From: Chloroflexota bacterium
GTDB taxonomy: Bacteria > Chloroflexota > Dormibacteria > Dormibacterales > Dormibacteraceae
Reading direction: 5' to 3'
Assembly (NCBI GenBank): GCA_005880915.1
Contig: VBIW01000046.1
Coordinates: forward strand, 1-64,000
Length of the DNA: 64,000 nucleotides
Both the position numbers and the translations under genes were made by a program. Each line of letters opens with the position of its first letter. Within the stretch, counting starts at the first letter, position 1. Below the pieces are notes generated by a model. It searched no databases. It saw nothing but the letters and a program-made list of their open reading frames with translations, and was not told the DNA's origin. Of this stretch, positions 61,714 to 64,000 are shown one piece after another.

Positions 61714-63669
61714 GTGCAGCCTGTCGTCATCGGGGACGTGATCTGGGAGCCAACTCCCGACGTCATCGAAAGAAGCCGGCTCAAGCGGTTTATGGACCGC
61801 CACGGGATCGAGACCCTCGATGAGCTGCTCAAACGCGCCGACGACGACATCGAGTGGTTCTGGGATGCGGCGATCAAGGACATCGACGTGGCGTTCTACC
61901 GGCAATACCACAAGGTCGTCGACCTCTCCCGTGGCAAGCAGTGGGCGACGTGGTGGGTCGGGGCGCGGATGAACATCATCCAGAGCTGCCTCGACCGGCA
62001 CCGCGACGGTGAGCTCCACGACAAGACGGCGATCATCTGGGAGGGCGAGCCGGGAGACACGCGCACGCTGAGCTACAGAGAGCTGGACAAGCAGGTGTCG
62101 CGCCTGGCGGGCGGACTCCGCAGGATGGGCATCGGGCAGGGCGACCGGATCGGGATATTCATGCCGATGTGCCCCGAGGTCGCCGTCTCGGTCCTCGCCG
62201 CGGCCAAGATCGGCGCGGTCATCATCCCCCTCTTTTCGGGCTACGGTCCGGAAGCGATCGCCACGCGGTTGCGCGACGGCGAGGCGAAGGTCCTGATCTG
62301 CGCCGACGGCTTTTACCGCCGAGGCCAGGTTGTCGCGATGAAGGAGACAGCCGATCGCGCCCTGGTCAGCTGCCCATCGGTCAAAAAGGTGATCGTGCAC
62401 CGGCGCGTCGTCCGCGAGATCCCGTGGTCACACGGACGCGACGAGGTCTGGGAGGTGCTCCTGGAGGACTATCCGGACCGCCTCCCCACCGAAGAGCTCG
62501 ACCCAGAGGACCCGATGATGATCATCTACACGTCGGGCACCACGGGCAAACCCAAAGGCACGCTTCACGTGCATGGGGGTTTCCCTGTCAAGGCCGCGCA
62601 GGACATGGCGCACGGCTTCGATGTAGGACCCGATGACGTCGTGTTCTGGTACACGGACATCGGCTGGATGATGGGCCCCTGGCTCATCTTCGGGACCCTG
62701 TTGCTCGGCGCGACAATGGTGCTGTACGAGGGCACGCCCGATTTCCCGGCGGCAGACCGGCTGTGGCGCATGGTTGAGCATCACAAGGTCACCGTGCTCG
62801 GCGTTTCCCCGACGCTGGTGCGCAGCCTCATGACCCATGGCGACGAGGTGCCGGCGCACCACGACCTCTCCAGCCTCCGCATTCTCGGCGGCACCGGCGA
62901 GCCGTGGAACCCCGAGCCGTTCAACTGGTTCTTCCAGCACATCGGAGGCGGCCGGATCCCGGTCATCAACTACACAGGCGGAACCGAGATCTCCGGCGGC
63001 ATTCTCTGCGGCAACGTGATCACCCATCTGCGCGCCTGTTCGTTCGCGGGGCCCTTGCCGGGCATCGCCGCCGACGTGCTCGACGCAGAAGGCCGATCGG
63101 TGCGCGGCGAAGTAGGTGAGCTCGTCATCCGCAATCCGTGGCCCGGTATGACGCGCGGCTTCTGGGGTGACCGCCAGCGCTATCTCGACACGTACTGGAG
63201 CCGGTTCGAGAACGTCTGGGTGCATGGCGACTGGGCGTATGTCGATCCAGCGGATGGCCTCTGGTACGTGCTGGGCCGGTCTGACGACACGATCAAGATC
63301 GCGGGCAAGCGACTCGGTCCGGCCGAGGTGGAGTCCGTTTTGGTGGGCCATGCCTCGGTTGCGGAGGCGGCGGCGATCGGCGTGCCTGACGAGCTGAAGG
63401 GTGAGGTGCTTGTGTGCTTCGTAATTCTCCGACCCAACCAGAAACCGAGCGAGGAGCTCGCCACCGAGCTCCAGGACCTTGTCGCCGCCGCGCTGGGCAA
63501 GCCTCTACGGCCCAAGGCGGTCCACTTCGTCGGCGACCTTCCACGCACGCGCAACGCGAAGATCCTGCGCCGCGTCGTCAAGTCAGTCTACATCGGGAAG
63601 GACCCCGGCGACCTGTCCTCGCTCGAGAACCCAAGCGCTCTGGCGGCGATCGGCGCCACTAGAAGCTGA
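61714..63669 (+). CDS. Acetyl-CoA synthetase-like AMP-forming ligase
   Basis: A 651-aa ANL-superfamily enzyme. AMP-binding loop YTSGTTGKPKGTLH; GWMMGPW; TGGTEISGG; the hinge GRSDDTIKIAGKRLGPAEVE; and the C-terminal catalytic Lys in RNAKILRR, as in acetyl-CoA synthetases. The acyl group could be acetate, propionate or a related short acid. GTG 61714 start. Overlaps the DsrE gene by 11 bases, convergently. Confidence 0.9.
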   Translation: MQPVVIGDVIWEPTPDVIERSRLKRFMDRHGIETLDELLKRADDDIEWFWDAAIKDIDVAFYRQYHKVVDLSRGKQWATWWVGARMNIIQSCLDRHRDGELHDKTAIIWEGEPGDTRTLSYRELDKQVSRLAGGLRRMGIGQGDRIGIFMPMCPEVAVSVLAAAKIGAVIIPLFSGYGPEAIATRLRDGEAKVLICADGFYRRGQVVAMKETADRALVSCPSVKKVIVHRRVVREIPWSHGRDEVWEVLLEDYPDRLPTEELDPEDPMMIIYTSGTTGKPKGTLHVHGGFPVKAAQDMAHGFDVGPDDVVFWYTDIGWMMGPWLIFGTLLLGATMVLYEGTPDFPAADRLWRMVEHHKVTVLGVSPTLVRSLMTHGDEVPAHHDLSSLRILGGTGEPWNPEPFNWFFQHIGGGRIPVINYTGGTEISGGILCGNVITHLRACSFAGPLPGIAADVLDAEGRSVRGEVGELVIRNPWPGMTRGFWGDRQRYLDTYWSRFENVWVHGDWAYVDPADGLWYVLGRSDDTIKIAGKRLGPAEVESVLVGHASVAEAAAIGVPDELKGEVLVCFVILRPNQKPSEELATELQDLVAAALGKPLRPKAVHFVGDLPRTRNAKILRRVVKSVYIGKDPGDLSSLENPSALAAIGATRS

Positions 63670-64000
63670 GGACCTTATCCGCCTCCATCGTCAGCCGGAC
63701 CAGGTCAGGCGGCGTGATGTATTTCGCGTTCGGTGTGAGCATCTCCGGCAAGACCCCACGGGCCTCGGCACAGCCTTTTCAAACGTAGATAGGGATCTCT
63801 TTGTCGAGGCACTTGTCGAGCAGCTCCCGCAACGGTGGGATCCCAAGTCCGAGCACGTTGGCGATCACGTCGGGCTTGACGAGCTCCGCGGCGTCGCCTG
63901 CCAACGCTATTGCGACCTCGGTCCCCGCGGGCTTGGCCCCGTTGACCGCGATGTGGAATGGAATGCTCGCGCGCGTTGGGTCCTCGGGTCCCGCGGCGGT
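63659..64000 (-). CDS. DsrE-family protein, probable selenoprotein (partial)
   Basis: The C-terminal 113 codons of a DsrE-family protein, running off the right edge. Frame and pattern are clear: FHIAVNGAKPAGTEVAIAL, then ELVKPDVIANVLGLGIPPL, DKEIPIYV, then TGA (63781-63779), KGCAEARGVLPEML and PDLVRLTMEADKVLSF before the TAG stop. Related DsrE proteins have CxxC at the TGA position, so here U-x-x-C is likely. The reading continues with strong similarity on the far side. A hairpin fitting the bacterial SECIS rules lies 19 bases after the TGA. The alternative is a nonsense-mutated pseudogene. Confidence 0.75.
63749..63767 (-). promoter_or_regulatory. Putative bacterial SECIS hairpin
   Basis: Minus strand: CGAGGCCC (63767-63760), loop GTG (63759-63757), GGGTCTTG (63756-63749), an 8-bp stem including two G-U pairs. 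The loop begins with G, and it starts 19 bases after the TGA, both in line with the known bacterial SECIS features. Confidence 0.6.

Follow-up and report, generated by a model that had tools for sequence, protein, structure and literature searches.

A DsrE/YchN-family gene of a Chloroflexota bacterium with an in-frame TGA that is very probably read as selenocysteine

Here, we present an analysis of a DsrE/YchN-family gene at the end of a 64,000-nucleotide stretch of DNA (the window; contig VBIW01000046.1, positions 1 to 64,000) from a Chloroflexota bacterium. Based on comparative sequence evidence, this is very probably a genuine selenoprotein gene, in which a UGA codon is read as selenocysteine (Sec) under the guidance of a hairpin and the product is a DsrE-fold protein with a UxxC motif. 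Taken by itself, the insertion of Sec at codon 81 appears almost certain. In the proposed mechanism, SelB and Sec-tRNA(UCA) would read UGA codon 81 as Sec, and comparison of related sequences suggests that a hairpin with a GUG loop 19 nt downstream guides this insertion. In these genomes, annotations probably show the protein as a fragment or overlook it, because a standard gene finder would halt at UGA. The features are listed in Table 1.

Table 1. Coordinates of the predicted selenoprotein gene, its elements and its convergent neighbour
Feature	Positions in the window	Strand	Remark
DsrE/YchN-family gene, predicted selenoprotein (part in window)	63659..64000	-	Frame passes TGA and stops at TAG 63661-63659
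Predicted selenocysteine codon TGA (Sec81, first residue of UxxC)	63779..63781	-	TGA in 45/45 strong class matches
Second redox Cys of UxxC (Cys84)	63770..63772	-	Invariant in 37-row alignment
bSECIS-like hairpin	63749..63767	-	8-bp stem, GUG apical loop 63759-63757
AMP-binding enzyme, acetyl/acyl-CoA synthetase type	61714..63669	+	Pfam PF00501, PF13193, PF16177

The first-pass annotation, made from the window alone, had described a frame running through a TGA with family-like sequence on both sides, and our data agree. In the window, 73 open codons precede the TGA and 39 follow it up to the TAG. The read-through protein scores 37.2 bits with the Pfam DsrE model (PF02635; cut-off, 22.7); because the match spans residues 4-113 of 113, family sequence is present on both sides of the TGA. 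Extending the gene past 64000, a check proposed at that stage, showed that it occupies 63659-64021 of the minus strand on a contig that reaches 72154. The GTG at 64021-64019, just past the window, is the probable start, giving a product of 120 residues with the TGA as codon 81. The motif at the site is V-U-K-G-C. In an alignment with Escherichia coli YchN (1jx7; E = 1.1e-5), the TGA codon corresponds to the first Cys of CKTC, and 53 of the 62 homologous loci that lack the TGA and were read at this position have Cys; the codon is thus located where relatives carry the first Cys of CxxC, as originally suggested. Likewise, the second Cys is retained (U-K-G-C) and is unchanged in all 37 alignment rows, including five Cys-form paralogues.

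AlphaFold2, supplied with 37 aligned sequences, modeled the protein with a pLDDT of 97.4. In the predicted structure, Sec81 closes the strand formed by residues 78-81 and is followed by a helix (residues 82-87). In a Foldseek comparison with the PDB, ranks 1-10 are all of the DsrE/YchN/TusBCD type, with 3mc3, 1jx7, 3pnx and 2hy5 as the top matches, while rank 11 is a designed cage. According to this model, the product is a small DsrE/YchN-fold protein. In the predicted structure, Sec81 and Cys84 form a UxxC pair, and we consider it probable that the selenol of Sec81 and Cys84 make up a redox pair. Sec81 would be the nucleophile, either taking sulfane sulfur or selenium or reducing a disulfide or persulfide, and Cys84 would resolve the intermediate as a selenenylsulfide.

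Characterised members of DsrEFH and TusBCD relay sulfur by means of an active Cys. We tentatively suggest that the window protein might act in a sulfur or selenium relay rather than in general thiol reduction. It is also conceivable, with a probability somewhat short of even, that Sec is inserted but that the protein is a general thiol/peroxide reductase or a metal/metalloid binder; the fold, which is that of the sulfur-relaying DsrEFH and TusBCD proteins, argues against such a non-carrier function. Consistent with a non-carrier function, passages of two surveys list UxxC selenoproteins as thiol-redox proteins and discuss some selenoproteins in relation to metal resistance (PMC1088965, PMC13188914), and no sulfur-oxidation gene was seen adjoining the DsrE selenoprotein gene. 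We also clustered the neighbours of 38 loci, many of which are cut by contig ends, and inspected all clusters with at least three loci. Among these 38 loci, there was no adjacent same-strand partner naming a substrate. The AMP-binding gene is convergent with the selenoprotein gene and overlaps its end by 11 bases; it is present in 23 of the 38 loci, in 21 of them directly downstream on the opposite strand and in the other two (L090 and L093) on the same strand and more distant. An MFS gene is present in 24/38 loci by cluster; if the antisense overlaps in L095 and L096 are subtracted, it lies upstream on the other strand in 22. The remaining loci have no common adjacent partner, and we rejected the neighbour genes as a guide to function. 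We conclude that the AMP-binding neighbour is outside the selenoprotein system.

The hairpin had been described as an 8-bp stem with a GTG loop 19 bases downstream of the TGA. Stem and loop are as described, while the distance applies to the loop only: the stem starts 11 bases past the TGA, and the GUG loop 19 nt past it. As given in the relevant section of a recent inventory, the bSECIS model specifies a loop of 3-9 nt, a stem of 4-16 bp, a G at loop position 1 or 2, a UGA-to-loop distance of 16-37 nt and an MFE of <= -7.5 (PMC13188914). With a 3-nt GUG loop, an 8-bp stem, a distance of 19 nt and a bare-stem energy of -10.0 kcal/mol, the hairpin lies within these limits for loop, stem, G, distance and MFE, supporting the suggested fit to a bacterial SECIS model. 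A search of 63600-64000 against Rfam gave three matches, all under their gathering scores, which we took as chance. We also considered the folding energy as proof of the hairpin and rejected it, since the z-scores are weak or near zero (-1.06, +0.06 and +1.53 for 40, 50 and 82 nt, respectively) and 244 of the 1622 TGAs on both strands of the G+C-rich window (15%) pass our version of the bSECIS limits. It is because of its conservation that the hairpin stands out beyond chance.

Across 59 distinct 39-base sequences, 91.5% of the stem cells hold standard pairs (95.6% for the inner 7 pairs) vs 29.9-61.0% when the stem is slid out of register. The covariation score of 0.179 was reached in none of 500 shuffles (mean 0.115), which leave relatedness in place; with the same shuffles, the four pairs with changes on both sides were equalled in 110/500 and the level of further pair types in 19/500. 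The clearest pair, 18-30, is standard in every sequence, with G-C in 53 and C-G in the other 6; pair 17-31 is A-U in 45, U-A in 3, C-G in 1, G-U in 1 and unpaired in 9. The outermost pair is unpaired in 22/59, and the core, CCC GUG GGG, is near-invariant. Synonymous codon use was compared in 30 sequences, of which 27 entered the pN/pS count (L041, L047 and L048 were left out). In the hairpin codons, pS is 0.14 vs 0.43-0.47 elsewhere in the gene. The four-fold sites of the hairpin are fixed or nearly so, in the codons of Ala6 (GCC 30/30), Arg7 (CGT 28/30), Gly8 (GGG 30/30) and Val9 (GTC 30/30). Of the 32 comparable sites, the 28 others have a synonymous entropy of 1.3 bits (median); equally low sites outside the hairpin are Val-1 (GTT 30/30) and Val36 (GTC 25/26). 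Altogether, these patterns support that the hairpin is constrained at the RNA level beyond protein coding, with compensatory pair changes in distant relatives. Separately, we notice that Val-1 is the codon immediately 5' of the Sec codon (63782-63784, minus strand). Elsewhere in the gene, conserved Val codons are mostly variable or GTC, and this codon itself varies among more distant relatives; the base preceding a UGA may influence read-through.

A six-frame search of 110 genomes of the class gave matches in 56. Strong matches (E <= 1.5e-23) were present in 45 of the 110, the window's genome counted, each with one internal TGA, and in 45/45 this TGA is at the site, as verified codon by codon for 30 and by profile alignment for 15. 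The carriers comprise 35/42 genomes of f1, the window's own family, nine of f4 and one of f2. The remaining 18 match rows have no internal stop; they consist of 17 weak matches (E = 9.8e-10 to 3.9e-4) and G078, a contig-end fragment beyond the TGA site that is 97% identical and was left out. In a scan of genome contigs, 38 of 38 relatives have TGA at the site; this set overlaps the class set, and many of its members are class genomes listed with a public name. By title, 29 of these relatives are Chloroflexi bacterium, five Candidatus Dormiibacterota or Dormibacteraeota, three Terrabacteria group bacterium ANGP1 and one Bacillota. From sample depths and title words such as 'Pasture' and 'palsa', the carriers appear to be soil bacteria. 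At the level of the phylum (400 genomes, E <= 1e-6), we obtained 41 TGA rows with 54-216 bits and 54 stop-free rows, G078 included, with at most 62.9 bits. Four phylum genomes have two different TGA-form DsrE genes each, namely G279 (L117/L151), G195 (L118/L153), G230 (L145/L147) and G159 (L150/L154), and the match in G195:C74 contains two TGAs.

The 62 non-TGA loci that were read have Cys (53) or Ser (9) at the site; all are distant DsrE proteins, mostly of the CxxC or CQPS type. They include all 53 non-TGA phylum rows (44 Cys and 9 Ser; G078 excluded) and 14 of the 17 weak class rows, all Cys, five of which are also among the phylum rows; the three unread class matches are G072:C49, G035 and G012. 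Four genomes (G077, G087, G090 and G108) have both a distant Cys protein and the TGA form. Aligning homologues had been proposed as a way to look for Cys/TGA exchange, and the Cys residues at these loci and in YchN bear it out: in the DsrE family at large, the aligned position is, as far as the homologues indicate, a Cys/Sec site. A close Cys orthologue was not found in the class, phylum or contig searches; one of the two contig-scan patterns was written with Cys, but the back-translation used by the scanning tool is undocumented, and this absence is therefore a lead rather than proof. L203 (G017:C151), a weak match of 21.5 bits, has the motif VPIYVCGFC, which resembles the Sec form more than the motifs of the other Cys proteins do, and is possibly a Cys relative. 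In a tree of 88 distinct rows (66 TGA, 13 Cys and 9 Ser), all Cys rows cluster together, apart from the TGA rows, with support 99/99, and the Ser rows likewise fall into a single group. The tree covers 88 of 131 loci, which include identical genes obtained through two collections, after identical and short rows were dropped, and 22 of the 62 non-TGA loci. We rejected this tree as evidence for a single origin of Sec, as it has 113 columns, unsettled bootstrap values and long branches that meet, and the U group requires two changes.

The TGC/TGT codons at the 53 distant Cys loci leave room for the idea that this is a Cys gene whose TGC/TGT became TGA through decay by point mutation or through mis-sequencing, or that the frame comprises two short genes rather than one. 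We regard this as extremely improbable. A sequencing error in one assembly does not explain TGA in all 45 strong class matches; TGA is also present in other lineages, although many of the genomes are MAGs from one sampling project. Moreover, pN/pS hardly differs between the part before the TGA (0.29) and the part after the hairpin (0.28), and these near-equal values argue that the same protein-level selection continues past the TGA. We prefer to interpret the TGA as a Sec codon. Going further, the gene could belong to an old DsrE/YchN subfamily in which Sec is obligatory, which we consider rather doubtful. In all close forms found (45 of 110 class genomes and further lineages), the site has TGA and never Cys, together with the near-invariant hairpin core. 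If Sec were obligatory, the protein might perform a chemistry that is impossible for Cys, e.g., transport of selenium or of highly reactive sulfane sulfur. A selenoprotein in which no Cys has been seen in place of Sec across a deep clade makes a good case for analyzing what Sec adds over Cys.

The Sec machinery, which the first-pass annotation had proposed to look for, is present over the cut-offs in the window's genome. A tRNA-Sec with anticodon tca scores 72.4 bits vs a gathering score of 47, selA and selB are side by side on C48 and both over the curated cut-off, and selD is also over its curated cut-off. Among 14 control genomes, the cut-offs were passed by tRNA-Sec in five, selB in two, selA in one and selD in two. 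Because the tRNA-Sec model passes in 5/14 controls, the identity of the tRNA rests on its score of 72.4 bits together with ARAGORN, which on seven loci called six tRNA-Sec with tca and assigned the seventh, a weak match, to tRNA-Ser. Among the 45 carriers, selA is over the cut-off in 38 and tRNA-Sec has at least 54 bits in 32. One or the other is found in 42/45 carriers vs 42/65 non-carriers (Fisher p = 0.0005, uncorrected for kinship). We rejected the machinery as a strict partner of the DsrE gene over the class, as three carriers (G006, G080 and G107; 59-74% complete) have neither marker.

In-frame read-through of the TGA would also be expected if this lineage had given TGA a new meaning (Trp, Gly or Cys) or if a suppressor tRNA other than tRNA-Sec decoded it. 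We regard this as hardly credible because TGA is the plain stop of the same DsrE gene in 3/30 sequences in which the inner TGA is read through, arguing that the code is not reassigned; moreover, the TCA-anticodon tRNA that was found is tRNA-Sec, and a constrained hairpin would be out of place in a plain change of code. Reading of the inner TGA as Sec remains our preferred interpretation.

Two further genes with in-frame TGAs were observed in the window's genome. The selD gene has its own TGA (L051:1531-1533, G000:C220) in the motif HGAGUACK. A molybdopterin protein on C32 (L165, match frame at 1501) has one in SCNRTUHAPS, a motif that we take to be that of an FdhA-type formate dehydrogenase, and the frames after this FdhA-like gene resemble NuoE/NuoF. 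Given the Sec machinery and the TGAs in the DsrE-type, selD and FdhA-like genes, the genome likely makes at least three selenoproteins. In addition, there is a second, partial match to the selB profile (L012, G000:C69:5931-7076) with 197 bits, which is below the cut-off, and one TAA inside; because the assembly is 8.59% contaminated, this match may be foreign, or it may represent another elongation factor.

The earlier surmise that the family may not be new is correct. A DsrE-like UxxC selenoprotein family was first listed in 2005 with two sequences from the Sargasso Sea (PMC1088965), followed by one sequence from Desulfovibrio vulgaris in 2006 (PMC1794560), two groups in the GOS data in 2008 ('DsrE 2' with 19 and 'DsrE 1' with 2 sequences; PMC2398784) and an entry in a 2026 inventory (PMC13188914), as given in the parts of these papers that list families. 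In the text of the deep-Sep paper, the terms DsrE, Chloroflex, YchN and sulfurtransferase were not found, and the open-licence papers searched for Dormibacter/Dormiibacter (both spellings) together with selenium contained nothing relevant. As publications on the family date back to 2005, the kind is already known, and the window gene apparently joins it as a Sec-only subfamily. The lineage, the evidence from covariation and the demonstration of how deeply the Sec form is conserved are new.

Among known systems, E. coli YchN (1jx7) has the same fold as the window protein (TM 0.79/0.80), and the Cys of its CKTC aligns with Sec81; however, it has Cys where the window protein has Sec, and the two share 23% identity. 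The fold is also common to DsrE of DsrEFH (2hy5) and to TusBCD (2d1p). These proteins are parts of hetero-oligomers, whereas the window gene has no adjoining sister subunit of TusBCD or DsrEFH, its neighbours being the MFS and AMP-binding genes on the other strand. Among the NCBIfam models, two TusB models alone match, both below cut-off (TusB, 24.2 vs 49.2). In YedF/FdhU, which part of one report connects with selenium genes, the DsrE-like domain bears CGxC (PMC5322559). YedF/FdhU has two domains (SirA-like and DsrE-like) and a Cys motif, whereas the window protein consists of one DsrE domain, with UxxC. The published DsrE-like selenoproteins, compared here by motif, Pfam family and counts alone as given in the sections listing them, are of the same kind: they share with the window protein PF02635, the UxxC motif and a bacterial SECIS after the UGA. 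In those sections, the lists of such proteins are short, whereas the Sec form of the window's family is conserved over many related genomes.
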